A stretch of 64,000 nt of DNA. Origin: Haliclona indistincta. Taxonomy: Eukaryota > Porifera > Demospongiae > Haplosclerida > Chalinidae. Below the pieces are notes generated by a model. The model made no database searches, had not been told where the DNA came from, and saw only the letters and a list, made by a program, of their open reading frames with translations. The stretch is from contig OZ024790.1 of NCBI GenBank assembly GCA_964017065.1, positions 11,598,624 through 11,662,623 on the forward strand. Direction: 5' to 3'. Each line of letters starts with the position of its first letter. Position 1 is the first letter of the stretch. The position numbers were made by a program, and so were the translations under genes. Below are positions 4,928 through 35,915 of this stretch, piece by piece.

Positions 4928-7828
4928 ATGGCAGCACACAACATAGCTATGACTGCTGCTGGTTGGAAGATGCTTCTGATTTTTTCTGGACTACTTGGTG
5001 GAGGTAGGCAAGTTTGATATCCGTGACTGTATGCAACACAGCAATCCTCTGTAGCTAAAGCAGAGAGATGTAGTGCTGCTCATCCAGTTGATACGAGCAA
5101 TGTGGATAGCAGATATGTCTTCTCAATCTCCTCTGGTCGTGCATTGGTCATTTCCTACCAGACCATTCCCTGCAATGGTGAAATAGCTACATGGTCTGCA
5201 TCTGTGAAGGGAAAATTTAGACTAAGCTTCCTGGTCTGGGAGCAAAACACCACCTCAATATACAATTTGGTTGGACGGAATGATTTTATAGTCAACAGCA
5301 GTGATGAAATGACTACTGTAATGGATTTTGAACCACTCCCAACTGATAGAATTGCAGTAAAAGCTGGTCAAGTTGTTGGACTATTTTCTATAGTAGAAGG
5401 AACAGAAGCCGGTGTGACATTTGTCTTGGTATCTGTAACAGCTAATGGAATGCCCCAGAACGTTACTTACTCAGAACGTATCTTAGATGTGACCTCTATC
5501 AATATTTCCTCAAGTTCAACGACTACTGTTCCAAACATTAGACCATTGATTTCGGCAACAATAGAAGGTAAGAACGGATTATCATAGTTATCATGCACTT
5601 AAACAATGCTACAGCAAATTCTCGTCCATATATTCCGGTTGTGATCAATGTCACAAAATTAACCTCCACAAACTCAGCTGTCAGCATATTCATCAGAATC
5701 GCCAGAATAGCCGTCACTAGAGAAAGCTATTTCGTCACATACAAAGGAGTGGAAAGAGATGTGCAGGAGAGACAGACTACATCCATCACTGGTCCATTGA
5801 ATATTACAAGCTTAAACTCCACATATTCATTCAATATTACTGGATTGGAAGAAGGCACAACTTACTCATTTTCAGTAACAGCAGTCAATAGTGATGGAAA
5901 CACAACCAGTGGTGTAATGAACTTCACTACTGATCTTCAAGGTATGTGGAATATTTAGAGCAGGAAAAAATAATGGGCACTTTCTCGCTATTATAATTAT
6001 AAAGGACCCGTTAATTGTTCCAGTATCAATGTTTTATCACGTCAAGTTACACTAGAATGGTCTCCTCCGTCTTCTTTGTCAGAAACATTCAGATATAATC
6101 TAACTTGTAATCGTGTCATCACTACTGTCACTCTTAACACCACTGTCACTATCACTACTATACCGTACACAAACTACACCTGCACTTTGACAGCACAGAC
6201 CACAGTTGGCACCATTATTATCAGCACTCCTACAACATGTAACTTCGAGTCTTCACAAGACAGTGAGCTGTACATTTGTCAACTTATAAAACTCAATATT
6301 TCTCTTTTCATGCAGTCCCAGATGGTCCTCCTCAAAATTTTCGTATCGTGACCAGTATGACATCTGTTATACTGCAATGGCAGCCACCAGCACAACCCAA
6401 TGGTATCATCACTGCATACAAGATCACAGCAATGAACACTCTGTTTGTTATAATTAAAAGCTCAATCACAAGCTATAAATTTTGTGGTCTTCAACCCAAT
6501 GAGCTAGTGAGCTACACCATCAGTGCCATCACTGTGGCTGGTGAGGGACCTACAACTGTGGTTTTCATAGCAAGAACACAAAATGAAAGTTAGTTTGCTG
6601 CAAGAATAATTATTGATGGGTTCTGTTTTTTTCCGCAGTGTTTTCAGGTGTTGACCAACTAAGGATACTAGGTAATGAGCAGGAACACCCTCTTAACATC
6701 ACATGGAGTCCACCAGTCACACCTCATGGCTTCCTCATCACTAAGTACAATGTTATAGCTAGCAATGAAAACGGTTCAACTTACCTCAACGAGACCACTA
6801 CAGCAACATATTATATCATCAATTTGAATCTTGGTGAGTTAGCACAATAATGCTGATGCAACTAGAACTATATACCCCACAGTATTTGATGAGCAATACA
6901 ACGTCACTGTTATTCCACTGGATGATTGTAATACTTATGGAGATCCTGCGAGCATCAAGATCATGGTTTCGAATAGACAGCAATCGAGTAGGAGAATTAA
7001 TACTAATCTACAATACTTTCTTATTGTTTGTATTCAGCATTTATTCTCTTACTGATTGGAGCAGTATCAGGTTGTGTTGCTCTAGGATTGCTTGTGATTA
7101 TTAGTGTTTTTGTTGCACTGGGAATAAGAAGAAGCTCAAGATCAGTAAAAAAGACACAGTAAGCAATCTCCTAGCCCATGAATATCATGATGTACATATT
7201 GCAGCTCGCAAGTACCACCGGTCACCAATAGAACGGTTCTGCATAGTATACAAAATGGGCAAGAGCCAAGACAGAATTTGTAAGTATGCATGCTTGTACA
7301 CAGTTCAGCCATAACAATAATAATGCTTTTTTAATAAGTGGAGATGATATGGTGACAACTGAATGTGCTGCTTACGATGACAGGTACCATTGGTTACTAT
7401 ATACACCAAGTTCACTAGCTTGTGAAATGCACTGTTTGCTTGCAGCCCACCCTCAGCTGTTTATGAATCAGTGAATGAGGCTCTTACTAGCAGTCAAGGG
7501 TCACCAGTGTAAGTGATTTTGTTCCACTCATTCACAAAATTTGTTGTTATTTTCCTGTACAGAGACAATGGAATAGAGATGATTCAATGTCCTGCTTATG
7601 TTGCTAACTATATAGACAACAGGTAATGTATTCATTTGACTTGCAGCTCAAGGCATCATCGTAACAATTTTGATTTCATGCAGTGCTGAGATCGATATGA
7701 CTACCTGTGTTGCCTATCAGACTACAGCAAGTATGGCCACTACTGTACGATTGGAGAGCATGGACTCATCTCAAGCAGACAGACTCACACAACAAACCAC
7801 TAATGATGGCGAACCTTTGTACATCTAG
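4928..7828 (+). CDS. FN3 single-pass receptor with shared YES-type tail
   Basis: Complete gene with thirteen predicted exons: 4928-5003, 5064-5567, 5615-5941, 6005-6262, 6316-6588, 6639-6833, 6883-6987, 7038-7158, 7205-7279, 7339-7383, 7446-7508, 7563-7622, 7684-7828. They sum to 2247 bases, 748 residues plus stop. Exon 1 is a signal peptide (starts MAAHNIAMTAAGWKMLL). Exon 2 is a module of about 165 residues that I do not recognise and that replaces the Ig domains of the upstream gene. The next five exons carry four FN3 domains, closely matching those of the gene at 1-4325 (for example LQWQPPAQPNG, FCGLQP, SYTISA). Exon 7038-7158 is the membrane helix. The last three exons are the cytoplasmic cassette (PPSAVYESV, CPAYVAN, CVAYQTTA, C-terminal PLYI), almost identical in DNA to the tail exons behind the adhesion GPCR. 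The two receptors are tandem neighbours, suggesting local duplication. Confidence 0.85.
7446..7828 (+). other. Cytoplasmic tail cassette, copy 1
   Basis: Exons 7446-7508, 7563-7622 and 7684-7828. The cassette is entered in phase 2, and its introns and 3' UTR also match the copies at 26607-26990 and 33466-33848. Similarity begins only some tens of bases before the first cassette exon, inside the intron, as expected for intron-mediated exon shuffling. Conserved tyrosines are VYESV, CPAY, CVAY and PLYI at the C-terminus, the last fitting a class II PDZ ligand (hydrophobic at 0 and -2). Confidence 0.8.
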
Positions 7829-8217
7829 CTATCATGTGTGACTATTAGTGCTAGTATTATTAGCGGGTAAAGAATTTAGTGTTGACATCACAATTGCTAC
7901 ACCCAAAATTGTATTGCACCGTTTGGAGATTTTCTAAATTTGCCGAATCTGCCGGCTTCTCAATTTATAATTGCTCATGTACTCATCATTAGATTAATTT
8001 TTTGTTAATAATTTGGCAGTGCCAATACTATGGTTGCTATGGTTACCGCTGTGATTCAAGGTATTTTGAAATTCGCATATGTGTCTATATAAAAATTAAT
8101 GTTATCAACATGAAAAAATGTCATAAATCAGATAATAAATTTTCGAGCATCTTAACTGTAAAAAGACATAATAACTAAAAAAAGATTAGTATTATACAAA
8201 AATAACTTTAAAATGGA

Positions 8218-8520
8218 CTAATTGTTCACTGTCACTTCAAGCATTCCCTCATTTGTGATGGAGTAGCTGCAAAAGAAAATAATTATAACATCAATCAGTT
8301 GATAGTTGTTAAAAAATGACAATTATTTTGAAGGGTACACAAACAACTGCTACGGCAGGCTCGTAAAAGGTTGATGGTTTTTTGTGGGAACAATTATCAA
8401 GCCTTTTATGATCACCTAACTGAATCTGGCGACATCTCAAGTGACTGATAATGGCTGGCTTTATCTTAGCGTTTCCTTTGCTGTGACGTCCTCGGCCAGT
8501 AATGACATAGACACAGGGGC
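8218..8520 (-). pseudogene. Orphan last two exons of an N4BP2-like Smr domain
   Basis: On the minus strand, 8421-8520 and 8218-8266 match the two terminal exons of the N4BP2-like gene (compare 34401-34500 and 34238-34286). Exon 8421-8520 encodes the Smr core (CVYVITGRGRHSKGNAKIKP) and 8218-8266 the end (SITNEGMLEVTVNN-like, stop). No upstream N4BP2 exons are present, so it cannot make a protein alone. Similarity continues through the purine-rich intron to about 8634 and then stops at a foldback element. It lies tail-to-tail with the receptor tail cassette exactly as in the two large copies, so the two pieces moved as one segment. Confidence 0.85.
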
Positions 8521-8639
8521 CTGGAAGGTAGGGGGAGGAGAGAGGGAGGACTGAGGAGGAGAGAGGGAGAGAGAGAGGGAGGGAGAGAGGGAGGAGAGAG
8601 AGAGGGGAGAGATTATAATCAAGTTTTGTGCAAATCTGT

Positions 8640-8884
8640 GTAAAATAACAAGAAACAAGCATGGAATGGTAACACGATTGACTTACTAACAGACCATAGA
8701 TCTCTACATCAGTGGCTGCTGTGGCCTATGGCCTGACTATAGCTAGTTCAGCAAGTTGCTGTTGACTGCTGACACCTGACTTGCATTCAGCTTGCCGGTG
8801 ACAAAATATTAATCTTATGTACAGCCACTGATCATAGCAAGTCAATCGTGTTACCATTTCATGCTTGTTCCTTGTTAGTTTACA
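8640..8884. mobile_element. Foldback element with about 45-bp inverted ends
   Basis: 8640-8687 and 8838-8884 are imperfect reverse complements (core ATGGTAACACGATTGACTT), and further inward CATCAGTGGCTG pairs with CAGCCACTGAT. There is no coding capacity. It abuts the breakpoint of the orphan N4BP2 segment. Confidence 0.7.
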
Positions 8885-11332: not shown

Positions 11333-11337
11333 GCCAC

Positions 11338-12128: not shown

Positions 12129-15100
12129 ATGGCGAATACAATGCTACTGGTCTCTCTAATAGTGAGTTGCAGTAGTTAGTGTGGTGATCTCGTGTGCGAG
12201 TTCGCTCCGGCGCATTCCGTTTAAATGTTTTGTGGAAATAGGTCATCTCCCTCTCGCGCTTGTTTTTTTCCTGTACATATACTGTTCTGTTTATGGTTGT
12301 GCGGCACACCAATGTGCTTTTCAGTAGTTGCATGGCTCTAACGCCATGTACTGCAGTAATACAGCAGTAGCTAGTAGTCCAGAGGGTTATATGCATAATA
12401 TTGTAGTAACGTGAACAGAGAACCCGACAAGAGAGGAATTCACTGGTACGTGTGTATCAAAATTCTATTTTTCAAATCACAATCACAACACACAGTATTT
12501 AAACAGAGAGAGGGTCTGTGTACTGTTTGTCCACTCTATTATAGTCATGTTTTATTTTATCATAATAATATTATTATTGGACAGTGCAACATTCAAAAAT
12601 TAAGAATACTCAGCTTATTTTCATGATAGTATTGCAGTGCATAGTTTGAAAAACAGAAAGTACCACCAATTTAGCAAAGAAGTTTGCTTATAATTATTAT
12701 GACCTCCAAACAATCACTAGACCACACCCTCTTTAGAATGCAAGGCTGAAATGGAAGGTGTGGTCTGAGAGATAGATAGGGTTCTTGAGCTTATTGTGCC
12801 TGGGAATTTCCGTGTGCTTATGTCAAGTAATTGGTTAGTTCAGACCAACAACCATGTATAATCACATAGAGCTGAGGTCAATGAGGCAGCTTGCAAGTCC
12901 AATCAAGTCTAAACATGCAAGTCCCCCAAAAATTATTACCTGCGTCACACATTTTGTGTACTCTCACTCCTCCTCCTGTCATACATTAATGTGTATTCAC
13001 TCCACTCTGTGTGCTACCACCCCACCCTTGTACTGACTGGATGTGTCCCATGATCATCATCTACTATTGTTAAGGTGACACCGATACCTGCAGTAAGAGG
13101 CACACTGTTGGTCCTCCTGCGAGTTCCTCAGGAGGTTCAAGGTCAGTTGTGCAAAGTGCCTGTCTACTACAATGGATCCGGCTAAATTGCTATAATATTT
13201 TTCTCTACAAAATCAGAATGATCCTACTTAAATTTTATTTTTATCTTTACCTACTCAGTTGCATTCCTATTATTAAAACTCTTGACCACATTATGATAAT
13301 AGATATGACAGCTTGTAGGACACACACACACACGCACGCGCACACACACACACACACGCACACGCACGCACGCACGCGCGCACACGCACGCACACACATG
13401 TCACTTGTTTTATTTGCTGCAAAGTGGTATGCAGGCCATGTACACCCCATACAGTTGGTTTTTCTTTAAAAATCAAGTACTAAGAATAAGATAAACATTC
13501 TGACACTCATCTCAAACATGAAATATCGGGGGACAAACAGTACCATACACAGAGATTTTAGCTGGTGATAGTATGATAGTTTATTCAGCTTAGAATTAAG
13601 ATACAGAATTTAGAAAATATTCTGAAATGTACATTTGTCAAACTGATACAAAACATGAAGAATGGAATTTTTGAACTGCTAGTTTCGAAATGAAAATCGA
13701 GTGGACAAACAGTACATACTGTTTTCCATAGCATAATGCCTGTCTAATGAATAATTTTGTTGTGTTTCTGACCAGTGTCAACTTTTGATGTTGTTAAAAT
13801 TGGTTTTCTCTCGTTTTTCGGCATAGATCACAGCAATGGCTGCTCTACTCTGCTCCAGTGTGCTGGCACAAGATGGCTGCCAGAGCGGCTTTTATCGGGT
13901 CTCTATTCCAGAAGACAGTGCGGTGTGTGCAGTATAGCGTATACCAGCATCTATTCAAAAAGCACACCACTGGTACTAGTATTGTAGAGCTTAAGATGCC
14001 TGTCAAAATCCTCTTAGAGAAGCTACATGTAGCTCTCACAATAATAAGTGTGCTTCATGATCAGCATATTAATACATTAGTGTGTTAGTGTGTGTCCAAC
14101 ATGTGTACAATCATGTTGTGCATACATGTGTCTCTTCTCACACACAGATTGGTACTCATCTTCTTCAGCTCCTTTCACCAACAGACGCCATGATTGTACT
14201 CAACAACACCAGGAGCTCATTCGCTATTCTTCCCAACGGTACTCTAGTTACTGCTGTGGTCCTTGATTGTGAGCAACAAGTCGACTATACATTAACTATT
14301 GTTAGTCAGGAAGAAGGACTGTTGGTACCACTAGCCGTCGTGTGGGTTACTGTGAGTGATGTGGCGGATACTGCTCCTGTCTTCAACCAGCAAGAGTACC
14401 AGGTGTCTGTACCAAGGAACCTCACTGTGGGCACTGTCATTGCAACAATTACAGCGACCACTATGGACCTAGCAACACCATCTTACTCTCTTTTTGCTGC
14501 TAGCACCACTGGGTTTTTCGCCATCGGCAGTCGTTCTGGTAACATCACTCTGCTATCTCTTCTCCCTCCTCGTGTGGGCTCACCTTATCGTCTAGTGATC
14601 GTGGCTACCAGTGGTACCAATGGACCATCTGCTGAAGCTGTCATCATAGTAACAGTGTCACACACTAACACACCTCCTTTCTTCTCGTCCTCCTCGCTGG
14701 TCCTGGGTGTTGCTACCACACCCACCGTAGGGTCAGTGTTTGGGTACGTACTAGCCAGTAACCATGATGACCCTAACACTCCAGAAGGGACTATTACTTA
14801 CTCTATTCCTGATAATGTGAGTTGTTGATCATATGATAATAATAGTTGTTTTTATTTTACTAACAGCGTCTGCCTGTGATAAGTGAGTGTTACTTCCCTC
14901 TTCTCTCTCTTTCTCTCCTTCTCTCTCTCTCTCTCTAGAGCCCGATCGGTGTACTGTCTAGCGGCGCTGTGTTCTTCAAGCAGTCATTAGCTTCCTCTCT
15001 CTCTACAACAGTGCTAGCTAGTGATGCTGGCAACCCTGCACTAACTGCCTCTCTGCTCCTCAATGTAACTCTATCTCTGCAGTCTCCTGTAATCAACCAG

Positions 15101-16023
15101 CTCGAGTATGCTTTCAGCGTCTCTGAGACTGCACCTTCCTCTCCTCTAGTGACTGTGGGTGTGGCTGGTGATAGTGAGGGTGTGATCTACGAGATCCTGG
15201 AGGGCAATACTAATGTGAGTCAACGAGTGAGTGTACAACTATGACTAGTTTTTCTATAATGCTGAAGTTAGTGTCACCTTCATGCACTAATGTGTTCAGT
15301 CTCTGATCATTCTCCATCGTGTGAATAGAGACAACAGTGACTACAGAGACTGAACACATTATTGAACGAAGGTGACGCTGCACACTGCACACTCCACACT
15401 TTTCACCTCACATTGCAAGATGACACCAACTCACTGTAGCATAGACTAGTTATGGTGTGTGATGTGTATGTGACTGGTCTGGTGGTTAGTACCAGCTAAT
15501 TTAGTGTGTGTGTGTGTTATTGAGTTGCACAGCTCATTCCTCCCAGCAGTGTAATCACAGCATACCATGCTGGTTATGTCTTCTCCTAAACAGGAGATAA
15601 TCAGCATTAATTCCAGTAATGGAGAGTTGTTGGCTGCTCAATCACTCAATCATGAGGGAGTTGCTATCTATAGTCTGCTAGTGGGTGCCAGGAGGTCAGG
15701 TCATCTAGCTACCTGCCTGGTGACTATCACTGTACTGGATGAAAATGAGCCACCTACCTTCAGCAGACCTGTTTACAAGGTACTGTTACCATAGCAACGA
15801 CGTGTTGTTGTCATACTTGAGCAAATGTTTACAACTTTGCATTATTGTTAACATTCTTTAAAAATATGAAATTGTCAGTAGACACTAGATAATTATTATA
15901 AAGCTGCTGTTGGTGTTGCTGGTGTTTTATTGTTCTTGTACCCACTGAGCTACAGCAACCCTCCCAACAGTGTGGTATTATAGTATAGATGCTACCATGC
16001 ATCCTGTATGACCCTCCCTTCCT

Positions 16024-16074
<51 letters not shown>

Positions 16075-19000
16075 CTCTCTTTCTCCATCCCTCCCTCCCT
16101 CTATCTCTGCTTTTCTCTCCATATCTAACGCTCTACCTCTCCATAGGTCACCATCCCGGAGAACTCTCCTTTGGGTAGCACTGTACTAGTCCTCACAGCT
16201 CATGATCAGGACGCGGGCCAGAATGGTGTCATCTCTTACTCCTCTCAGTCCCTCCCATCTCCCTTCTCTCTCACTCCACCATCCGCCATTATACTTGACC
16301 AGCCTCTTGATCGCGAGTCTGTTGCTGTCTTTAGCTTCACTGTCACAGCCAGTGATGGTGGTACTCCGCCTCTATCCAGTGAGGCAATGGTGATTGTTAC
16401 CGTGGGCGACATTAATGACCACACCCCTCAGTTCATTGGGCCTCTCTCAGCTGAAGTAATAGAGAACCTGCCCAGAGGGAAGCTTGTCGCCCAGCTGAAC
16501 GCAACGGATCCTGATGAAGATAGTAATGGAGCTATATCATTTTCTCTACTGGGCCCTCCTGTTGCCCTTCATTACCTTGTGCTGTCTCCTAGAGGAGAAC
16601 TGCTGACCAGGAGATCCATTGATAGAGAGATCATCCCGCTCATACTTGGTGAGGTAGAGGTGAGGGACAATGGCCGCTCTCCTCGCTCATCAAAAGCAAC
16701 CATTAGAGTCACAGTGAACGATGTAGGTGACACACCACCGGTCTTTACACAGCTTAGCTACTCCATTGAGTTCAGCCGACCCCTTACAGCAGGTGAAAGG
16801 GTGGACACCATTACAGCATACTCCCAGTCCTCTACGATAAGCTATGCAATTTCTGGCAGTGACTTGTTCTCCATCGACCCATCCACTGGTGCTCTCTCTG
16901 CTGTTAGCTCCCTAGCATTGGAGTCCATCCATCAGTTCAACATCATAGCAACGTCTAGCGATACCAGTGCCTTTGTATCTTATACTATCACCATCACTCC
17001 CTCCTCCCCTCCATATGTACGACCTCACTCCGTCTACCTGTCTGCTCCATCTTACCTTCTTCCTGATCACTCACTGATCACTGTAGGCACAGACCTGACT
17101 AATCCTTCCTCCTTCTCTCTCAATTCTTCCTCTCTCCTCGTGCGTGACCTCTTCTCCATCAATGCTACCTCGGGTCAGATCACTGCATCAAACAGTATTG
17201 ATAGTGGACGATACAATCTCAATGTGTCTGTTGATGGAGTGGGCGGAGTTGGTTTAGGGATTGTGATGGTAAGGGTGAACCTAGTGACGACTGAATCACT
17301 CGGCAATGCTGTCATTGTGTCTCTTCCCCTAATTCCGTTGGAACTCTTCCTGCAGCGATCAGTTGACCAGCTAGTAATGGCGGTGCAGTCATCTCTCTTC
17401 TGCTCTTCCTCTCAAGTAGAGTTCTTTGCTGTCCAGAGCACTTCCGAGGGTGGCACAGAGGTAGCCATTGCTGTACGAACTCCAGGCCTAGTCGACTTCT
17501 TCCCTCATGTCATGATACTCGATGAACTTCTTCGTAGCCATACCCAGATACAGCAACAGCTTGGTACAGCTGTTGTTCTTCAACCAGTGGATCCATGCTC
17601 CAGCAGCCCATGCAGTAACTATCAGCTGTGTAGTAACACTATTCAACTAGGCTTTAGCCTGCGTACCACCTCTACACCTCATGTGACCTCTCTATCAACC
17701 AGCTTCACTCCATCTTTTGTGTGTGAGTGTCCCAGAGGGTTCTTGAGTACTAATGGCTGCATTCAGCTAGCTAGTCACTGTGATACTGATCCATGCATGT
17801 TTGGCTGCATTCAGCTAGCTAGTCACTGTGATACTGATCCATGCATGTTTGGTGGAACATGTGTTGAACTACTGGGAGACTATCGCTGTAAGTGCCCTAG
17901 CTTCACTTCCGGCAAGAACTGCTCCATTGTGTGTCCCTCATCGTCCTGTGAGCTATGCTCTCCCAATCCTTGTCGTAATGGTGGCTTATGCTCCGATAGT
18001 GATGGCACTGTGTCTTGCTCCTGTCCTCCTGGACACACTGGTGATCGCTGTGAGCTTACCTCAGTTCAATTCTCTTCTCCATCATACGCTCGTCTTGCTG
18101 ACCTGCTCGAGCCCACTAACCGTCACACTATCACACTCTCCTTCTCTACCATCACACCCACTGGCCTCGTGTTGTATACTGGTGAGGGTTAACTTAGCAA
18201 CCACTCAGTGCCGCTGTATACAAACACTGCAGTATAATGACACACAACACAACTGATAGTTTCACCTTCACTGAACAATAATGTGATTACTATATTGTTG
18301 TTGCTTCATATCATAAGAGGGTTTGTTTCTCTCTTGCTGTAGGTTACCCTGGGCAAGGTGGGGAGCTGCTGGCTGTTGAGCTAGTACTGGGACAGATTAG
18401 AGTGACCTCTCACACTCGTGGAGTAATGGAGTCAGCACAGACTACAGCTGTACATACACTGAGCGATGGCCAATGGCACACTATCACCATGATAGTGACT
18501 GAACAGGTATAAGTACATTAGAAATTCTCCACGACAGCTAGTATACAGTCTACCTAAGCAGTATACATTACCTTTGTCTTTGTGCATATTCATTCATCCA
18601 TTCCTCTCTTCCTTCATCTCCATCCATCCATCCATCCATCCATCCATCCATCCATCCATCCATCCATCCATCCATCCATCCATCCATCCATCCATCCATC
18701 CATCCATCCATCCATCCATCCATCTATCTCTCTCTCTATCAGGCTATCTTGGTCACCATTTCTGATTGCTCCACAAGTGCTGTAAAACTCATAAACAACA
18801 ACGACCAGTGTACCCTATCCATCAATATTAACAGCTCTTCCACTAGGTACACGGCCACACATGTCAATGGCCTCTTGCCATGATCTTTTACTTCTATAGG
18901 TTGGTGAGTGGGCAGTACCCAGTGTATGTGGGCGGGGTCCCACCTTCTCCAGCTACCTTCCCTCTACTGAGCTCAGCGTTCAGTGGGTGTGTGAGAGATG

Positions 19001-22000: not shown

Positions 22001-22819
22001 AGTAGTACTGACATGTTCTTCTCCAGTGATGCTCTAGAGCATGTAGCTACACAGCTAGGCTCTCTGACTGCTTCTTCAACCACCACTGCTGATCTATTGG
22101 TTGCTGCTAGACTCCTCAAGGAGCTACTGTCCCCTGATCTACTGGACTCACTCACTCCCTCTCTCCTTCAGCCATTAGTGTCTGCTGTGAGCAATCTCAC
22201 TAACCCATCACGTACACAGCAATGGAGGCAAGTAGCTAATAACATGTTGCTGCTGACAATGGAGGCACTAGTGAACAGGTAAGGACTACTCACTCACTTA
22301 CTCATTCACTCACTCACTCACTCACTCACTCACTCACTCACTCACTCACTCACTCACTCACTCACCCACCCACCCACTCACTCACTCTCTTCCTTTACTT
22401 ATGATTCTCTTGTTGACCAGGTCCACTGAAGCACAGCAAGATGATGGTGAACTGACACTACCTAGTGAACACGCTAGCATGAAGGTGGCTCGTCAGAACC
22501 AGTTCAATGGAGTTGAGTGGAGCGTGCCTAATGGAGGGTCAGTGTATCTACCAGCTGGACTAGCTGATAGTGATGGTAGGTAGACTCACTCACTCACTCA
22601 ATCAATCACTCACTCTCTCTCTCTCCAGCTGGTGAAATACAGACGTCTCTTCTCTTCCTTTCCTCCTTCTCCCAGTCCCTTCCTGTGACCATACCCAACA
22701 CCATGGCTACCAGTCCGATCTGGGTGATCACCATCAAAGGAGGCGGAGTGAACCCTCATAATCTCACTCAGCCGCTATCAATCACCTTCCCTAGACAAGA
22801 AAACCAGGTATAGCGAGAG

Positions 22820-22858
<39 letters not shown>

Positions 22859-25800
22859 AAAGAACCATTATTCTAAGTTATCTTCTAGTACATGTGCATG
22901 TTACGGACCATTTTGCAACCCGGACCGTTTTAAAACGGGCCGCCGGCTTTAAAATGGGCTGGCCCGTTTTAAATCCAGCTGGCCCGATTTAAAACGACGT
23001 TAGCGGGTCAGCCCGTTTTAAAACCGCGGCATGATACATTAGCATATTATTTGATGTACTTATTTTTATAGAAGTGGCGTTCTAGCTAGTTCCATAGGCT
23101 CTCTGGCACATCAATGCTCTGCATGCTTACTCTACGTGTACATTTTGCACAGCCATGCGTGCTTTCTTTGTCAACTTTATGTTAATTTTTAACGCATGAT
23201 GCATGCTATAGGTACAATGAGTACATGCAGTGACTACAGTGCTTGTGAATTTGTGTTGGGATTCTTCCTCGTTAGTGCAAGAGTCATCACTTGCAGTGCA
23301 AGAAAATGTTCGGTACACCGTGAAAATTTTTACACGATTACTTCTTTCCAGCACGAATGTCAGTCCGCCTCAGTTTGGCGTCAGGAAGAACTTGAAGCAT
23401 TCGGTCGAGAACGAATTGAACGAATCTTCCATTACGGATCGTCGCCAGCAGTGAGAACTCTAGCCTAAGCTGCGTGTAACGATCTAACAATACTCACTCA
23501 GCTGCATCGACAACATGTGACAGGGCATTTCCATACGCTTGATCATCTATATCGCGCAGATACACTACTGCGTATATCGCGCAGTTAAATTGCTGGCCGG
23601 CTTTAAAACGGGCTAGCCGGCTTTGAAACAGGCCGGTCGGCTTCAAAACGGGCCAACGGTTGTAAATCAGTCCGTAACATGCATACATGTACTTAATTAT
23701 TATGTGCAAAGTGTAATCTGCTAGTGAGTTTGATAGTTTTTGTACATTGGACTCTTATAAACATGGTTTAGTGTATGTTGTGTGTGTGCCTAGGTATGAA
23801 TACATGACAGAAATAGAATATCTACAAATGTATTCTATTCAGTCGATGTATGTGTTGTGTTGCTGTGTGTGTTCCGGTAGTATAGCATCTTAGTCAAAGA
23901 CCCTTGTTATGTTCATAAACCAGTCTTACAACGAGTGTAGATGATGATTTAAATGTAGGTTACATACCACGTTAGCGGGATATAATGACCTGTTATATCC
24001 CGGAGAAAGGGCGCACTTCCCAGACTTTACGAGAGCTCTAGCCAATTCCTGAGGGATATAACAGGTCATTTGTCCCGCTAACATGTGATATAACTTACTT
24101 GTGCCATGCTAAAAGCTGTTCTGATCTTGGGCACATGACGCAGAGGGAGTTATGACCTGTTAATTCCCTCCAATACTGCAATCTAATTGGTCAGAATAGA
24201 CTTAGTATGGTATAAGCAGTGTTAGTGAGTGAGTGTTAACAATATAAAACACACATAAAACACACACCAGCTAGTAAAGACAAGGCAAGGCAAGTTGTGT
24301 TTGTAGTAGTATAGCTAGCTTGTGGTATGTGAGTGAGTAGTGGCTCCTACCTATGTGGTGCTAGCTAACTAACACACTACCAGAAACAGTAGTTGTTGAC
24401 CACTTCTGTCACGTGTGTGTAGAACGGAACAGCTGTCTGTGTGTTTTGGAACTACACCAGCAGTCGCTGGGACCTTAATGGCTGCCAACTAGTGTCTCCC
24501 TCTACCATTCAACCTGTGTGTCGCTGTAATCATCTATCATCCTTCACACTGCTAGTAATGGCTACCAATGACCAGGTCAGCTAGCAGCTAGGGCATGTCT
24601 CCTTCATAGTGATGCTGTATCTCCCTCTCTCTCAGGAAGATTCTCCATATGCTGTGTCTATATTCAACAGCCTAATACTTGGATTCACCAGCTTACTGTT
24701 GCTAGCTGCACTGTTTATGCTCTGCCTCAGAGAGTAAGTGATCTCTCTCGCTTGCTCTCTCTCTTTCTCCTTCCCTCCCTCCCTCCCTCCCTCCCTCGAT
24801 CCCTCCCTCCCTCCCTCCCTCTCTCTCTCTCTCTCATTGCTGCTCCTATTATTTGTAGGAAGAACAGGAAGAGTCAGTTCACAGTGGCTGGGTTCCAGCT
24901 AGTCCTTTCTCTGATGATACTCCATGTCTTGTTCCTTGTTGCTCAAAACTTCCTCCTAACTCTCGATATCCCATGTACTGTACTAGCTGTGATAATGCAG
25001 TACCTGTTGCTAACAGCACTTGTTTGGGTCCTCGTGCTATCATTCACTCTCCTCCTCATTGTGAGGACAGGAGACCATCCCAGACTAATGCTGTTCAAGA
25101 TATTCTCCTCCATCTTAGCATGGGGTACGTAAGCAGCTGTATAGCCCTGCCCCGCCTATCATGATGCTGGTCTCTTCTCTCTATAGTGACTCCACTAGCA
25201 TATACTGGAGTGTGTGTCATTGTTCAACTCACTCAGCCCTCTCTCCTCACAATGTACGGCACTCCACGATACTGCTGGGCTGCCCCTGGACTAGCTACCT
25301 ACCTAGCTGCACCTCCATTAGCCATTATACTGGTGAGCATGCAGACACTAGCATGATCACTCACTCACTCAATCAATCAATCAATCAATCACACTCAATC
25401 ACTTACTCGCACACTCACTCTTTATCTATCTCTCTGTGTAGCTACTGGTGCTAGTAGTAATGGTGGCTAGCACTGCTCTGTTGTATTGTAAAGCATCGTC
25501 ACCAAATGAGACTACTCCAAAGCACCGACTGAAGTGAGTCACATGTACTCACCGACTAGCTGTATAACTGTCCTCTATCACTAGGTTCTTCTTGCTGTTC
25601 TTGTGGTCAGTATTAATCTTGTTCTTCTCCACCTGGTCCTTTGGCTGGCTTGCTATAGCTGGCAGCCATTGGTCCCAACCTGTCCCCGAGGTACTGGATC
25701 ATCTCTTTGGCGGCAGCAATGTGCTACTAATAATACTGATTGTGGTCATAATGTCATTCGGTGATGATATACTGGAGTACTGTCAAGACAAGTCGCACCT

Positions 25801-26146
25801 TACTACCTCAGTGGAGATGGAGCTACGAACCACATCATCCTTCATTCGGGAGTCCCAGGGTTCATTCCGACAGCAACCAGACACGTCAAGACGCAGCTCA
25901 GCATCTTCATCGCCTGAACCGGAGTACGACTACATACCTGAACGTCAGGTAGTGACACTGCAGAGATACCCGAATGGAGAGGGAGAGAGTGTAGAGAGGG
26001 CTAGCATGGAGTGTGACAGCTACAAGATGGAGGATGACCTGAGGAATGCTGAGCCGGAGGAACCAGCATCGGAGGCTGGAGGACAGCCATGGTTTGCTAC
26101 ATCTGGTACACCGTCCCCACAGGGTCGATATTCGCCATGCAGTTAG
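12129..26146 (+). CDS. Flamingo/CELSR-type cadherin adhesion GPCR
   Basis: Seven-pass receptor for homophilic adhesion and signalling. Predicted exons: 12129-12161, 13827-13922, 14148-14816, 14939-15214, 15594-15779, 16147-18181, 18343-18506, 18743-18846, 18900-19147, 19196-19341, 19560-20249, 20397-20583, 20732-20835, 20887-20957, 21042-21193, 21353-21474, 21637-21933, 21989-22278, 22421-22575, 22629-22807, 24423-24575, 24636-24733, 24859-25124, 25187-25332, 25442-25533, 25585-26146; 7521 bases, 2506 residues. Order: signal peptide split over exons 1-2; about eight cadherin repeats ([17 protein letters not shown]); a ferredoxin-like/SEA-like stretch; EGF with the CELSR-specific pattern [10 protein letters not shown]; further EGF, laminin-G, laminin-G, EGF; two laminin-type EGF; SEA-like segment; EGF; a thrombospondin-3 repeat ([13 protein letters not shown]); hormone-receptor domain; GAIN; GPS with CRCNHLSSF (cleavage expected between L and S); seven helices. 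The stop at 26146 comes from a frameshift relative to copy B. Confidence 0.88.
12520..13715. repeat. Possible element in GPCR intron 1 with 17-bp inverted ends
   Basis: GTACTGTTTGTCCACTC at 12520-12536 has its reverse complement at 13699-13715, and GGACAAACAGTAC recurs near 13530. The interval also contains a CA/CG-rich microsatellite at 13319-13398. It may be an inserted element inside the 1.67-kb first intron; no target-site duplication was established. Confidence 0.4.
15268..15375. mobile_element. Small hairpin element in GPCR intron 4
   Basis: GTGTCACCTTC with TGTGTTCAGTCTCTG on the left is mirrored by CAGAGACTGAACACA and GAAGGTGACGC on the right. It is a short foldback, probably a MITE remnant, inside an intron of the GPCR gene. 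Confidence 0.6.
16028..16071. repeat. (CT)n microsatellite at a 3' splice region
   Basis: Pure CT tract upstream of the GPCR exon starting at 16147. It lengthens the polypyrimidine region. The ORF of S-L-S repeats across it is an artefact. Confidence 0.8.
17755..17850 (+). repeat. 48-bp in-frame tandem duplication inside an EGF domain
   Basis: Units 17755-17802 and 17803-17850 are identical. They duplicate sixteen residues ([16 protein letters not shown]) at the start of an EGF module of the GPCR, adding two cysteines before the intact EGF core. The exact identity points to a very recent event or a heterozygous allele. Confidence 0.9.
18621..18724. repeat. (ATCC)n microsatellite
   Basis: About 25 units of the tetranucleotide ATCC in the intron before GPCR exon 18743. 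Open reading frames of H-P-S-I repeats here are not genes. Confidence 0.95.
21194..21270. repeat. (GTGA)n array starting at a splice donor
   Basis: The donor of GPCR exon 21042-21193 begins a run of about 19 GTGA units, each reading GTGAGT in register, so the authentic donor is the first of many donor-like sites. Further (CACT)n runs occupy 21484-21600 and 22280-22385 in neighbouring introns. Confidence 0.85.
22888..23692. mobile_element. 805-bp foldback/MITE with AAAACGGGCC internal motifs
   Basis: Ends are inverted: GTACATGTGCATGTTACGGA at 22888 and TCCGTAACATGCATACATGT near 23671-23690. Subterminal regions carry many copies of AAAACGGGCC and CCGGCTTTAAAA in both orientations. An internal ORF (23196-23468) is not recognisable. 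The element lies in the 1.6-kb intron before the GPS exon of the GPCR. Confidence 0.7.
23965..24222. mobile_element. Interspersed foldback repeat, family member 1
   Basis: Shares long similarity with 60330-60626, including ATGTGATATAACTTACTTGT, CTGTTCTGATCTTGGGCAC and TTGGTCAGAATAG. An internal palindrome pairs GGGATATAATGACCTGTTAT with its complement about 80 bp later. Two copies in one window indicate a dispersed family. Confidence 0.75.
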
Positions 26147-26990
26147 TGGTGATTACATGCTTGATCAACCATACCAGCAGGGGCATGGTCCAGACCCTCC
26201 CACCTCCACACCCCTCCATGAGGATCCTCTATGGTACTCCGGTAACCAAAGCGTCATCTCTAAAAATAACGGCTTCACTGAGGCTGTTGCGATGCCTGAA
26301 GAACTCCATGCTGAGATCCATGACAACGACAACTCATTAACCCTTATACCATCACCTCATAAACCACATCTAATGTACGTGAGCCCCACATGCACACTAG
26401 CTAATGGACACGCCTCCTCTAGTCACATCATCAGGTGAATTACGATTCCTGTAATAGAAGAATAATTTACCTGATGAAAAATTTCACGTTTTGTCCAGTG
26501 TCAAAACGTACTCTATAATGCATGTTCATTACCCGAGTAATATTATTTTGCACTTCAAAAAGACTGGTACAATCACTTACTTGTGGAATGCTTTGTTTTC
26601 TTGCAGCCCACCATCAGCTGTTTATGAATCAGTGGATGAGGCTCATACCAGCAGTAATGGGTCACCAGTGTAAGTGATTATGTTCCACTTATTCACAAAA
26701 TTTGCTGTTATTTTTCTGTACAGGGGCAATGGAATAGAGATGATTGAATGTCCTGCTTATGGTGCTAACTATTATAGATAACAGGTAATGTATTGATTTG
26801 ACTTGCAATTCAAGGCAGCATCGTAACAATTTTGATTTCATGCAGAGCTGAGATCGAGGTGACTACCTGTGTTGCCTATCAGACCACAGCAAGTATGGCT
26901 ACTACTGTACGATTGGAGAGCATGGACTCATCTCAAGCAGACAGACCCACACAACAAACCACTAATGATGATGAACCTTTGTACATCTAG
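26147..26990 (+). pseudogene. Frameshifted GPCR tail and cassette, copy A
   Basis: Continuation of GPCR exon 26 to about 26374, followed by tail exons 26607-26669, 26724-26784 and 26846-26990. Relative to copy B, a 4-bp insertion near 26140 (CGCCATGCAGTTAG against CGCCAGTTAG) shifts the frame into an immediate stop. A 1-bp insertion in the second cassette exon (AACTATTATAGATAA) creates another stop after CPAYGANYYR. The splice signals are kept. Without correction the full-length GPCR would lack the shared tail. Confidence 0.8.
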
Positions 26991-27759
26991 CTATCATGTG
27001 TGACTATTAGTGCTAGTATTATTAGCGGGTAATGAATTTAGTGATGAAATCACAATTGCTACACCAAAATTGTATTGCACCATTCGGAGATTTTCTAAGT
27101 TTGCTTCTCAGTTTGCTTTCGGCTTCTCAATCTATAATTGCTCATGTACTCATTACTAGAATATTTTGTTAATAAGTTGGCAGTGCCAGTCATTAACAAT
27201 ACTATGGTTGCTATGGTTACCACTGTGGTTCAAGGTATTTTGAAATTCGCATAATTATGTGACTATAAAAGTTAATGTTATCAATGTGAAAAAATGTAAA
27301 AAAAGAAAAAATCAGTCATAAATAATGAATTTTCGAGCATCTTAACAGTAAAAAGACATAATAACTAAAAAAAGATTAGTGTTGTACAAAAATAACTTTA
27401 AAATGGACTAATTGTTCACTGTCACTTCAAGCATTCCCTCATTCGTGATGGAGTAGCTGCAAAAGAAAATACAAAATCAAATCAGTAATTAAAAAAAAAT
27501 TTTATCTGTTCATTTTTTTAATTTTAAATTAGCAATAGTTCAAAAATTGACACAATTATTTTGAAGGGTACACAAACAACTGCTACGGCAGGCTCGTAAA
27601 ATGTTGATGGTTATTGTGGGAATTGTCAAGCCTTTTATGATGAACTAACTGAATCTGTCGGCTTCTCAAGTGACTGATAATGGCTGGCTTTATCTTAGCG
27701 TTTCCTTTGCTGTGACGTCCTCTGCCAGTAATGACATAGACACAGGGGCCTGGAAGGGA

Positions 27760-28164
27760 GGGAGAGAGAGAGGAGAGGGAGGGGGAGAGGAGGAGGAGAG
27801 AGGGAGGGGGAGAGAAAGGGGAATGGGGAGGGAGAAAGAGAGAGGAGGGAGATAGGGGGAAGGGAGGAGAGAGAGAGGGGGGAAAGAGATAGAGAGAGGG
27901 AAGGAGGGAGATAGAGGGGAGGGAGAGGGAGGAAGGGAGAGAGAGAGAGAGGAGGGAGAGAGAGAAAGAGGGGGAGGGAAAGAGAGGGAAGGAGGGAGAG
28001 AGAGGGAGGGAGGGAAGGGAGAGATAGAGAGAGGGAGGGAGGGAGGAAGGAAGAGAGAGAGAGAGAGAGGGAGGGAGGAAGGAAGAGAGAGAGAGAGAGG
28101 GAGGGAGGAAGGAAGAGAGAGAGAGAGAGAGAGAGGGAGGAAGGAAGAGAGAGAGAGAGAGGGG
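27760..28164. repeat. Purine-rich (GGGAGA)n tract
   Basis: About 400 bases of G/A-only DNA in the last large intron of N4BP2 copy A. Shorter versions occur at 34505-34685 and 8525-8612. Long S-L-P-P ORFs on the opposite strand are artefacts. Confidence 0.95.
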
Positions 28165-28825
28165 AGAGATTATAATCAAGTTGTGTGCAGATCACATGCA
28201 AATAATGTGATCAACATGTACTCACTAGTGGAAGTAGACAGAGTCTTCTCTAGCTCCTCGATAGCTTCGTTCACGTGGAGACCATGAAGATCCAGAGTGT
28301 CAGCATCCAGAGCTTCATTTCTAAAAAAATGAAGAAAAGATCACTTCAGCAAGCTCAATTCAGTGGAGGAACAAACTTGGCTCTAAAAGTAGCTGCAGCT
28401 GCGTGCCTGTTAGCCTCTCTCATCTTCTCTGTGTGCAAATGTCCCTACATTGAGATAAAGAAGTGTTGTGCATTTGACAACATTTTGTTACCTGTTGAGC
28501 GTAATACTGGGCTACATCTGTCTGCTTCTTTGAGCGTGCCACAGCAGCTTTCTGGAAAAATTCTGCTCTTAACTTAGCGTGCAATGCTGCCTCAGCTCTG
28601 AAACTGTCATACAACTTGTCTGGTAAAGAAAGAGTGAAGTAACAGAGCAGTAAAGATAAGAATTCACCATCAGCTGACTGCCTGTCAGCAGTACTCTCTT
28701 GTATGCCGGCACCTGCCTTTTCTTCATTGCTGACTTTTTCTTGTGGCCTTGTCCTGGGCTTAGCCTAAACCACAAAAAACATTACTGAAATGCAGACCAT
28801 ACACCCACCCACCTACACTCATACA

Positions 28826-28828
28826 CAC

Positions 28829-28923
<95 letters not shown>

Positions 28924-28934
28924 CACACACACAC
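28826..28934. repeat. (CA)n microsatellite abutting an exon
   Basis: On the N4BP2 sense strand this is (GT)n beginning exactly at the donor of exon 29034-28935 (CATCGAAG then GTGTGTGT). Copy B has the same arrangement at 35914 but with an inserted element in the repeat. Confidence 0.9.
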
Positions 28935-30187
28935 CTTCGATGAAATATGGGTTCTTGGACGTAATGATTTAGGAGGATCTTTCATTTGGAAAACCATATC
29001 TCTCAGTTCTTGAACAGTCTTCTTAAAATTAAAGCTGCACAAGTAATAACAGAGTAACAACATCAAAATAGCGTAAAATCTAGGCTAGAAAGGTGGAGTG
29101 AAGATCAAGTATTATATGAATAGCTGTGTTAGCTGTTGACTCACTTGTGGCGCTTCACACAGCTGTCTATAGTGGAGGCACTGATGCCGTATCGCCTAAA
29201 CTGCTCTTTGAGATGATCAACCTGTCTCCTCCTCTCATACCGCGCAGAGTGCTCAGCTATAGCGTCCTGTGAAAAGAAGCAGTGACACCACAGCAAGTGC
29301 AAGTCGCATAATACAAGATGTACAACATAAACTTCTTGATAAAGAAACATACAGTCTTACGCTTTGACATTTCACACGTTACAGCGGTTTCACTACTTCT
29401 TGCAATCTAAAAGCGTCAACCGTAGAGCGTAAACCGTGTTCAATCTGAATCACGCAATTTAATAAACCTTCTAAATAAGGCATGGATCATGGTTTACGCT
29501 TTTGTGACTGTAATAAAACCGCTATAACAGAAATTATTATAGTTATTATGAAACAAAAATCAGCGAATGTAGCGCTGCAGCACACAACACTTCTTACCAT
29601 GTTCAGCCGTCTGTCATCACCATTCTGCTGATCAACAGGCACTGGATCATGCTGTTCAGTTGCTTCTTTCTTCTTTGGTCTTCTTCGGTTTGCCAAAACA
29701 GTGACAAATTCTCGATTCAGTACATCGCTTGCATCTATATCTTCGTCAATGCCGTTTGGAAGATCAGGAAGTTCAGGTTCGCCCGAGTCAGCAACTACGG
29801 AGACACAAAGAAGCTGCAAGTCTTCGAGATAAAGTGCTAGAAACTCACCTAGTTCACCTGACTGATATAAATGCTCGTATCTTCGTGCCTAAGAGGAACG
29901 ACAGATAAAATTGACAACACTTTCAAGACAGTATTGAACACACCTTGAGTGTGTCTATCCATTTTCTGTGAATTTCCTGAGCCGCTCTTTCGGAGAGCAA
30001 GACCACATAGTCGTCATTTTGAGGCTCACCTAAAAGACAGCAACAAATGCACAATGATGGAGAAACTCTTTGTAATAAAGTCAAGCTGAAGTGTTAATTG
30101 TAAACATTGGGCAAAGCCTTACGTAAGATAGTCTATAAGCAATAGGTGGAATGGTTTATGTACACATCCATGAGGGTGTGTGAGTGA

Positions 30188-30222
<35 letters not shown>

Positions 30223-31964
30223 TGTGAGTGAGTGTGTGAGAGTGAGTGTGTGTGTGAGGGTGTGTGAGGGTGTGTGAATGTGTGTGTGTGAGTGTGTGAG
30301 TGTGTGTGTGTGTGTGTGTGAGGGGATACCTCCAAAAAGCAGATATTTTTCCACCGAGCCATAAAGTCGCTGCAGTTGATCGCCTAGTGACACTGACAGT
30401 TTCAACTGGAGGTTGTCGTCAGGCATAAGGCGGGATCTGTCTTGACTGCCCTTCTCTGACAAACCCGCTCTGTTGTCATCAAAATCAATCTGATCCTGAA
30501 GCATCTGAGCATACTCCGCATCAGAGTAACCAGCTTCTTCAATAAACGTCCGTTTTCGTTTAGATCTTTCAACTTCGCCATCAACAGTCTGACCTTCTTC
30601 GGCAAAGTCCTCTTCGCTGGAAAAAGATTGGTCCAAATCGATAAACTCGTCCCAGCTTGAGTCGGTGAGTGATTGCTGATCCTCGCTGCTGATTGAGCTC
30701 TCAGTGTCTGACTCCATTTGAATATGAAGCGCATCTTCGACAGCTCTTGTCAAGTTGTTGTTTGAGTGTTCGTAGATGATTCTGAGTACGCCTGGTTTGG
30801 TGTGAGGAAAACAGTCAACTAAGAAGCTGAAATCGTCATCAGGATTAGATGTTACCACGTCAGGCGATATTGACTCCGACGAAGCAGACGGAAGCTCTAT
30901 TTCTGATGTTGTTGGCGGGAGCAATGGTGAACTGGCTCTGACCTCATTGGGACCAACAGCAGGGTTGAGCAACCTTTCATGAGAGGTAGGGTCAAGGCCG
31001 GTTGGATTCATAAGAAGCTCTGTCGGGAGCACCGTCTCGCTGTTGTCAATCGGCCAACAGTCCCACGGAGGTTGACTAACTTCCTGTTTAGGTGTAATAA
31101 GGTTACCATCTGGGCTGAGCAGGCTGTCTTCTTCACGCTCAAAAATGAGCGTTGTCTCGCTTGTCTTGTCTCCAGCAAAAGGCTCAAGGCGGCTGTCAGA
31201 AACAGTGCTACCCATGCCCACCTGTAGTTCAGCTGTGAAAACACCGCTATTGGTGTTCGCTGCTTCAGTATAGAAGCCATCTTTTGGAGCAGGCTCAACA
31301 GGTGACGGCTGCTTCGGCACGCTGGGCAGGTGCTGCGGGGTGCCGATCGGAGCTACCTTAGCGCCTTCAGTCTCTTCTTCATTGATTGGAGTCCCTCCTA
31401 GCATACTCACACCGACATTGTCATCACAATTCTTTGCCCCACCCAAGAACGGGAAAGACCAGAGCTTGCTCATAGGGTCGCTGTTAGCCTGCGACTCACT
31501 CATAATATTATTACTAGCAAGAAAACTGCTCAATGTTGTACTCACAGAGGGCTCAGTGAACCGAGAATTTCCATCAGCAGCACTGCTGGTGTATGGTAAG
31601 ATCTCCGGTAAGTTTTCATCGACTATCGCGCTAGGAAAGACAAGAGTTGCAGGTGGGTCTGCGCTGTGCTGGGAATGCTTTGTATCGTCCTGGATTGGGC
31701 TTGGAGGCAGCAGACTAGGCGTGAAGAGCGAAGACAACTGCGGTGGAAGGAGTGGGTCAGGGGTCGAGTTCCACTGTTGTAATTGTTCCATCTGAATCGG
31801 TTGTCCCCACACTTGGTCGTGCAACTGGTCCTGACGCTCACGATCTTTCTTCTCACGTAGTTCTTTTTCCAACTCCTCTCGCTCACGCATCAAGCGTTGC
31901 TGTCTCTTCTGCTCCTCCTGTTCACGTAGCTGCTGTAGCTGTCTAGCTCTCTCTTCCTGCTCAC

Positions 31965-32225
31965 ATATTCTCCTCCGTTTTAGCATGGGGTAAGCAGCTG
32001 TATAGCCCTGCCCCGCCTATCATGATGCTGGTCTCTTCTCTCTATAGTGACTCCACTAGCATATACTGGAGTGTGTGTCATTGTTCAACTCACTCAGCCC
32101 TCTCTCCTCACAATGTACGGCACTCCACGATACTGCTGGGCTGCCCCTGGACTAGCTACCTACCTAGCTGCACCTCCATTAGCCATCATACTGGTGAGCT
32201 TGCAGACACTAGCACGATCACTCAC

Positions 32226-32264
<39 letters not shown>

Positions 32265-33848
32265 CACTCAATCACTTACTCGCACACTCACTCTTTATCG
32301 CCCTTTATCTCTCTGTGTAGCTACTGGTGCTAGTAGTAATGGTGGCTTGCACTGCTCTGTTGTATTGTAAAGCATCGCCACCAAATGAGGCAAAGCACCG
32401 ACTAAAGTGAGTCACATGTACTCACTGACTAGCTGTATCACTGTCCTCTATCACTAGGTTCTTCTTGCTGTTCTTGTGGTCAGTGCTAATCTTGTTCTTC
32501 TCCACCTGGTCCCTGGGCTGGCTTGCTATAGCTGGCAGCCATTGGTCCCAACCTGTCCCCGAGGTACTGGATCATCTCTTTGCCGGCAGCAATGTACTAC
32601 TAATAATACTGATTGTGGTCATAATGTCATTCGGTGATGATATACTGGAGTACTGTCAAGACAAGTTGCACCTTACTACCTCAGTGGAGATGGAGCTACG
32701 AACCACATCATCCTTCATTCGGGAGTCCCAGGGTTCATTACGACAGCAACAAGACACGTCAAGACGCAGCTCAGCATCTTCATCGCCTGAACCGGAGTAC
32801 GACTACATAGATGAACATCACATAGTGACACTGCAGAGATACCCGAATGGAGAGGGAGAGAGTGTAGAGAGGGCTAGCATGGTGAGTGACAGCTACAAGA
32901 TGGAGGATGACCTGAGGAATTCTGAGCCGGAGGAACCAGCATCGGAGGCTGGAGGACAGCCATGGTTTGCTACATCTCGTACACCGTCCCCACAGGATCG
33001 ATATTCGCCAGTTAGTGGTGATTACATGCTTGATCAACCATACCAGCAGGGTCCAGACTCTCCCACCTCCACACCCCTTCATGAGGATCCTCTATGGTAC
33101 TCCGGTAACCAAAGCGTTGTCTCTAAAAATAACGGCTTCACTGAGGCTGTTGTGATGCCTGAAGGACTCCATGCTGAGATCCATGACAGCGACAGCTCAT
33201 TAACCCTTATACCATCACCTCATAGACCACGCCTAATGTGAGCCCCACATGCACACTAGCTAATGGACACGCCTCCTCTAGTCAAATCATCAGGTGAATT
33301 ACGATTCATGTAATAGAAGAATAATTTACCTGATGAAAATTTTCACGTTTTGTCCAGTGTCAAAACGTACTCTATAATGCATGTTCATTATCCGAATAAT
33401 ACTATTTTGCACTTCAAAAAGACTGGTACAATCACTTACTTGTAGAATGTTTTGTTTTCTTGCAGCCCACCATCAGCTGTTTATGAATCAGTGAATGAGG
33501 CTCTTACCAGCAGTCAAGGGTCTCCGATGTAAGTGATTGTGTTCCACTCATTCTCAAAATTTGCTGTTATTTTCCTATACAGGGGCAATGGAATAGAGAT
33601 GATTGAATGTCCTGCTTATGGTGCTAACTATACAGACAACAGGTATTGTATTTATTTGACTTGCAACTCAAGGCAGCATAGTAACACTTTTGATTTCATG
33701 CAGTGCTGAGATCAATATGACTACCTGTGTTGCCTATCATACCACAGCAAGTATGGCTACTACTGTACGATTGGAGAGCATGGACTCATCTCAAGCAGAC
33801 CGACCCACACAACAAACCACTAATGATGACGAACCTTTGTACATATAG
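31965..33848 (+). pseudogene. Headless adhesion-GPCR 3' end with intact tail, copy B
   Basis: Second copy of the GPCR C-terminal part: fragment of exon 23 to 31989, then exons 32048-32193, 32321-32406, 32458-33237, and tail cassette exons 33466-33528, 33583-33642, 33704-33848 (stop TAG). It encodes the later transmembrane helices and the cytoplasmic region. The frame is open from 32465 to 33237 and joins the cassette in phase 2 through a GTGAGC donor. Unlike copy A, no frameshift is present, so the tail reads through to VYESV, CPAYGAN, CVAY and a C-terminal LYI. No start, ectodomain or early helices exist here, so it is either a pseudogene or an alternative 3' end for the upstream full-length gene. 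Confidence 0.85.
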
Positions 33849-34237
33849 CTATCAATTATTAGTGGGTAATGAATTTAGTGATGACATCACAATTGCTACA
33901 ACCAAATTGAATTGCACCGTTCGGAGATTTTCTAAATTTGCTTCTAAACTGCCGGCTTCTCAATTTATAATTGCTCATTAATTATTATAATATTTTGTTA
34001 ATAAGTTGGCAGTGCCAGTCATTAACAATACTAACTATGGTTGCTATGGTTACCACTGTGGTTCAAGGTATTTTGAAATTCGCGTATGTGACTAAAAAAT
34101 TAATGTTATCAATGTGAAAAAAATGTAAAAAAAGAAAAAAATCAGTCATAAATAATGAATTTTCGAGCATCTTAACAGTAAAAAGACATAATAACTAAAA
34201 AAAGATTAGTGTTGTACAAAAATAACTTTAAAATGGA

Positions 34238-35850: not shown

Positions 35851-35915
<65 letters not shown>

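Follow-up and report, generated by a model that had tools for sequence, protein, structure and literature searches.

A sponge adhesion receptor gene that probably became chimeric by segmental duplication and is now decaying

Background

In mammalian immune receptors such as the CEACAM1 relatives, tail exons with tyrosine motifs reportedly move by duplication within gene clusters. Segmental duplication can also produce chimeric genes: in the human read-through fusions covered by the available part of PMC6764479, as at the locus described here, duplicated DNA joins two genes and a joint transcript is possible. The GPCR-TK and GPCR-TKL/K forms of G-protein-coupled receptor (GPCR) are likewise seven-pass receptors whose intracellular signalling module comes from a different class, according to excerpts of PMC12716839. 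Among seven-pass receptors, Flamingo/CELSR proteins share with the gene considered here the series cadherin, EGF, LamG, laminin-EGF and GPS, then seven hydrophobic segments, and full Flamingo proteins have been reported in Oscarella, a homoscleromorph sponge (both from the accessible portion of PMC4818920). We analyzed a window of 64,000 nucleotides from the demosponge Haliclona indistincta (assembly GCA_964017065.1, contig OZ024790.1, positions 11,598,624 to 11,662,623), in which a CELSR-like adhesion GPCR gene is followed by exons for the tyrosine-rich cytoplasmic tail of a neighbouring single-pass receptor, FN3 receptor B. These tail exons, here called the cassette, occur behind the GPCR in two tandem units, of which unit 1 is in line with the gene. 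We consider it probable that the GPCR gene became chimeric by segmental duplication and is now decaying; a working shared tail is possible. All results come from a single assembly. The CELSR-like receptor, the short introns and the clustering of Ig/FN3 receptors may be in keeping with a sponge.

Replacement of the GPCR terminal exon

The GPCR has a paralogue at ~6.10-6.115 Mb of contig C8, 5.5 Mb from the window, with main blocks 86-92% identical to the window gene. This paralogue is without the cassette and has its own separate last exon, entered in phase 2, with the predicted tail end NGHASSSQVV-R-YPDGSQIAIVESLC; we therefore rejected the idea that the cassette is a native part of the GPCR. 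Homology between the window and the paralogue stops within the intron that would lead to the native last exon, and FN3 receptor B intron sequence takes over a few bases later and runs into the cassette (Table 1). Exons of two different genes are thus adjacent and in the same orientation, with the join inside introns. Just upstream of the junction a stretch of the paralogue is missing from the window, which fuses two exons. The native last exon had only a chance-level match in the window (best E 0.057). The native donor of the penultimate exon survives and scores 3.2, against a median of 1.6 for the 22 body donors, and the unit-1 cassette acceptor scores 4.3; in the native frame, donor and acceptor alike are in phase 2. 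Because homology stops in the last intron and both introns are phase 2, replacement of the GPCR terminal exon by receptor-tail exons, that is, exon shuffling at the DNA level, is well supported by the sequence. The first-pass annotation had proposed receptor rewiring by exon shuffling; the cassette-free paralogue and the intron takeover bear out the shuffling, and the coupling to common partners is considered below.

The 22 body exons and the three unit-1 exons form a single open frame of 2492 amino acids. Pfam matches occur in the CELSR/Flamingo order (Cadherin, EGF, LamG, laminin-EGF, GPS), and residues 2118-2362 contain seven hydrophobic segments, a weak eighth being at 790-808. GAIN and TSP_3 matches were below their cut-offs, and Pfam 7tm_2 had no match at E up to 0.01. 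Five cadherin stretches and no hormone-receptor domain were matched by Pfam, which may miss divergent repeats. The best CELSR match has 24% identity over 30% of the region. Of 4322 candidates in a protein search with the seven-transmembrane part, tail and cassette, two were matched, both of them distant animal proteins, so that no close homologue outside this genome was available to show the ancestral tail.

The paralogue has a run of N where the exons for GAIN, GPS and the first transmembrane segment would be expected. In the 1914 of 2226 body codons that are comparable there is no stop; the synonymous difference (dS) is 0.104 and the nonsynonymous difference (dN) 0.036, and since their ratio of 0.35 is below 0.5, the GPCR has probably been kept in both places. 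Introns of the two genes differ at 231 of 2152 sites. The window gene has an in-frame duplication of ~17 residues in its EGF region (17760-17850) that is absent from the paralogue model, and copies of a dispersed repeat family lie directly upstream of the GPCR at 12519-13717.

Reading frame across the join

The cassette in line with the GPCR is predicted not to be read in the frame of the receptor. In unit 1, a 4-base insertion brings TAG 26144-26146 into frame, and the GPCR tail ends before any donor that could lead to the cassette. Exon 2 of the unit-1 cassette itself carries one extra base, which yields NYYR-stop and shifts CVAY and PLYI out of frame. With the TAG at 26146 and the TAA in cassette exon 2, no open frame crosses the join in unit 1. 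A working tail common to both receptor classes is contradicted by the predicted frame for this copy.

In unit 2 the outcome depends on the donor. Splicing from an alternative donor after 33237 would give one frame from RLI-PPSAVYESV to PLYI, for a protein of 2652 amino acids in total, whereas with the native donor the path is closed, that donor lying behind the stop. The open path requires the skipping of three unit-1 exons and a donor that overlaps the stop codon. The first-pass annotation had credited both GPCR-side cassettes with compatible donor and phase, and all of the near-identical copies with intact tyrosine motifs (VYESV, CPAY, CVAY and a terminal PLYI). The first claim holds for the unit-2 cassette, in phase 2 from the donor after 33237, and the second for the unit-2 and receptor cassettes; the insertion, the early stop and the extra base remove the unit-1 copy from both.

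Copies of the cassette and order of duplications

The three near-identical cassettes described in the first-pass annotation were confirmed: each consists of three exons with phase 2 entry and AG/GT boundaries, and the exons are 93-94% identical among the copies. Exon differences number 19/268 sites between the receptor and unit-1 copies, 18/268 between receptor and unit 2, and 17/268 between units 1 and 2; in introns and downstream DNA the corresponding counts are 44/513, 41/485 and 27/511. Noncoding divergence is therefore 8.5-8.6% between the receptor and GPCR-side copies and 5.3% between the two units, against 6.7-7.1% and 6.3% in exons. As noncoding and coding parts are about equally alike, the similarity would be mainly that of a young duplication, and we rejected near-identity as proof of functional conservation. 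The diverged relative reported at 3836-4325 is also real, being the tail of another FN3 receptor, FN3 receptor A, with 36% protein identity to the cassette. The strict consensus of the immunoreceptor tyrosine-based inhibitory motif is I/V/L/S-x-Y-x-x-L/V/I, and the VYESV of the cassette departs from it in having A two positions before Y.

A search for further genes with the cassette, as proposed in the first-pass annotation, was run on the 144-Mb genome, and by its outcome the three copies are no chance resemblance. DNA search with 7412-8300 found no full copy beyond the three, with three short matches (84-98 bases, 74-76%) to the downstream part, and protein search with the cassette reported just the three copies; both results are lower bounds.

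The cassette is part of a duplicated 1.2-kb block that also carries the 3' end of a convergent Smr-type gene, presumably N4BP2-like. In self-BLAST, 7412-8610 is colinear with 26573-27835 and 33432-34593, and homology fades near 8636. The block beside FN3 receptor B includes an orphan Smr-type 3' end (minus strand, within 8309-8725), of which 8309-8722 taken alone has a weak Pfam Smr match below the cut-off; a hand-joined end piece of the unit-2 Smr-type gene matches Smr above the cut-off. A dispersed repeat of ~130 bases, 93-95% alike at many genome sites, lies within the Smr-type gene at 29379-29511.

Both GPCR-side cassettes derive from one tandem duplication of 6.9 kb, 25100-31964 being repeated at 31965-38803 (self-BLAST), and for this reason two independent GPCR fusions were rejected. 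The units are 92.6% identical over their first 2.4 kb. Judged by the lower noncoding difference between the units, the tandem duplication is the younger event and the receptor-to-GPCR duplication the older. The block also stands beside FN3 receptor B with its orphan Smr piece, so the simplest history would be that a segment with the GPCR was placed between FN3 receptor B and the convergent Smr-type gene, with a doubling of the junction block at the same time, although the order of these steps is conjectural. This segmental duplication would once have made a splice-compatible chimeric gene. Later, the tandem duplication copied the cassette together with the 3' end of the GPCR gene and a large part of the Smr-type gene.

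Predicted products and alternative readings

Because the GPCR has lost its own end, its pre-mRNA probably runs into the cassette block, and cassette exons may well be present in its mRNA. A scan for poly(A) hexamers, which is partly informative, found AATAAA after the FN3 receptor B cassette, weaker variants after the unit-1 and unit-2 cassettes, and none of the scanned hexamers between 26147 and 26606. Since the unit-1 stop precedes the cassette, the main product is predicted to be a GPCR that ends in a shortened form of its native tail, the cassette being at most untranslated. In all likelihood, the open unit-2 copy is a remnant that the tandem duplication left behind.

Several observations weigh against this reading. 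The unit-2 path is wholly open and has good splice scores, the preferred path of the gene predictor for the GPCR region avoids the unit-1 stop through an unusual splice within an exon (25948 to 26178) and enters cassette exon 1, and some of the substitution counts speak for constraint. Changes since the tandem duplication were counted as nonsynonymous/synonymous and compared, by one-sided P, with a neutral nonsynonymous share of ~0.74-0.78; the numbers are small and uncorrected for multiple tests. The unit-2 cassette has 4/4 (P 0.08), which hints at constraint, and pairwise cassette dN/dS is below 1 (0.47, 0.29, 0.51), although these values, except the 0.51 between units 1 and 2, include the branch of the working receptor. 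The receptor or shared branch of the cassette has 5/5 (P 0.049).

The strongest alternative is that unit 2 is a functional 3' module, with unit 1 skipped and exon 24859-25124 spliced to unit 2 to give a seven-pass receptor with the complete tyrosine tail. We regard this as unlikely. In its favour, the frame is open through PLYI, the donor after 33237 scores 2.4 (again above the body median) and the cassette acceptor 4.9, and the unit-2 cassette is intact with half of its eight changes nonsynonymous. However, unit 1 comes first and retains usable splice sites, the unit-2 donor overlaps a stop codon, and the other unit-2 exons give no signal of constraint, with 11/1 in the tail (P 0.96) and 3/2 in the transmembrane part (P 0.38). 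In unit 1 the tail has 8/2 (P 0.71), the cassette 7/2 (P 0.62) and the transmembrane part 2/4 (P 0.04). Nonsynonymous changes make up 18/25 of the unit-2 total (P 0.35, near the neutral share) and 17/25 of the unit-1 total (P 0.20). These counts favour unit 1 as the source of the transmembrane exons in use, and by them constraint since the tandem duplication is not established for either GPCR-side cassette. It is slightly more doubtful still that a GPCR isoform made through unit 2 bears the complete FN3-receptor tyrosine tail, so that through one duplication a seven-pass adhesion GPCR would have acquired a signalling tail from the neighbouring Ig/FN3 receptor cluster. The functional coupling of two receptor classes put forward in the first-pass annotation is accordingly not upheld: the in-line cassette is frameshifted, and the intact one could be reached only if exons were skipped across 6.9 kb.

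Translation of unit 1 into part of the cassette through the in-exon splice, with a resulting tail limited to VYESV and perhaps CPAY, seems very improbable. It is the top-scoring path of the predictor for this region, and the native frame has no stop in the stretch that precedes the native donor; but the predictor is crude and had this window as its training sequence, the spliced-out stretch is continuous coding sequence in both the paralogue and unit 2, and cassette exon 2 would then terminate in NYYR-stop. Least probable of all is an assembly or haplotype artefact, in which two alleles would have been assembled one after the other as units 1 and 2, or the indels would be sequence errors: only one assembly was used and the units differ by several percent, which might be reached in very heterozygous animals, but the sequence read has no run of N at the unit join, the units have different flanks, the join cuts the Smr-type gene, and the question does not touch the receptor-to-GPCR duplication, which is older.

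FN3 receptors and neighbouring features

FN3 receptor B has four FN3 stretches (Pfam) and a single transmembrane exon at 7038-7158. A cluster of related FN3-domain matches surrounds the window at 11.56-11.79 Mb of C8 (150 of 722 candidates scored). In the gene models of two stretches of this cluster, L056 and L057, a related motif occurs (IEMKPCPAY, IEMKPCLAY) together with YETP repeats, of which the L056 gene has four, and the L058 model contains ISECVAYQVT. A fourth modelled stretch, L059, gave no convincing receptor, and no cassette-like tail was found in the third FN3 receptor of the window (minus strand, 47546-50729). Since cassette-type motifs occur in other FN3 genes of the cluster, the cassette is, by these gene models, native to the Ig/FN3 receptor cluster, though not in every member.

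A protein search with the transmembrane part and tail of FN3 receptor B, in which 776 candidates were compared, gave no match at E up to 1, the full protein found ten distant FN3 proteins among 7990 candidates scored, and a search of a phage collection gave no match. Judged by look only, the Ig/FN3 genes with tyrosine-rich tails, including those at window positions 1-7828 and 47546-50729, are candidates for receptors of a recognition or immune type. An inverted repeat that could be a fold-back element (9622-11305; 614 bases, 98%, spacer ~460 bases) separates FN3 receptor B from the GPCR. At 61821-62239 the window has a perfect tandem array of about four units with a 104-base period.

Table 1. 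Coordinates of the features discussed (window positions, except where C8 is named)
Feature	Position	Strand	Structure or content	Basis
Diverged cassette-type tail of FN3 receptor A	3836..4325	+		sequence comparison
FN3 receptor B	4928..7828	+	13 exons, 748 amino acids, tyrosine-rich tail ending PLYI	gene model
Left copy of block	7412..8636		FN3 receptor B intron end, cassette, 3' flank, orphan Smr-type gene 3' end	self-BLAST
Cassette of FN3 receptor B	7446..7828	+	exons 7446-7508, 7563-7622, 7684-7828; intact	
CELSR-like adhesion GPCR	13836..26146	+	22 body exons to 25124, then unit-1 exons 25187-25332, 25442-25533, 25585-26146	
Tandem unit 1	25100..31964		GPCR 3' end, cassette, 5'-truncated Smr-type gene	self-BLAST and gene model
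4-base insertion, unit 1 only	26137..26141	+		alignment with unit 2 and paralogue, both without it
Surviving native donor of GPCR penultimate exon	26427..26434	+	ATCATCAG, then gtgaat; phase 2 in native frame	
Junction	26559..26572		GPCR last-intron homology to 26558, FN3 receptor B intron homology from 26573	
Unit-1 cassette	26607..26990	+	exons 26607-26669, 26724-26784, 26846-26990; stop TAA 26779-26781 from extra base in exon 2	
Tandem unit 2	31965..38803		content as unit 1; Smr-type gene extends beyond unit	self-BLAST and gene model
Unit-2 GPCR 3' exons	32048..33241	+	32048-32193, 32321-32407, from 32459; open to ATG TGA 33236-33241; possible donor after 33237	
Unit-2 cassette	33466..33848	+	exons 33466-33528, 33583-33642, 33704-33848; intact, in frame with donor after 33237	
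Smr-type gene, unit-2 copy	34417..40634	-	exon ends uncertain	gene model
Modelled cluster stretch L056	C8:11558500-11568499			
Modelled cluster stretch L057	C8:11584500-11594499			
Modelled cluster stretch L058	C8:11786000-11795999			

Comparison with known systems

The locus appears to have caught an exon-shuffling event between receptor classes with both parents still present, one being the donor receptor and the other the GPCR paralogue that lacks the cassette. If the unit-2 isoform is made, signalling would have been rewired through one duplication; if it is not, the locus is an example of how phase-matched fusions arise and decay. Among the open-access titles listed in searches on tail sharing and receptor fusion, none concerned a seven-pass receptor with a tail in common with a single-pass receptor.

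In tail exchange of the CEACAM1 type a single receptor family is involved, whereas here donor and acceptor are of different class. The GPCR differs from the full Flamingo proteins in having five cadherin stretches where those have nine, as given in the available part of PMC4818920. Unlike the read-through fusions, so far as the excerpts of PMC6764479 describe them, the join here lies inside introns, the terminal exon is replaced, and the case is known from DNA alone. GPCR-TK and GPCR-TKL/K, in the accessible sections of PMC12716839, are families with kinase domains; the sponge case is one locus with a short tyrosine tail and a broken in-line frame.

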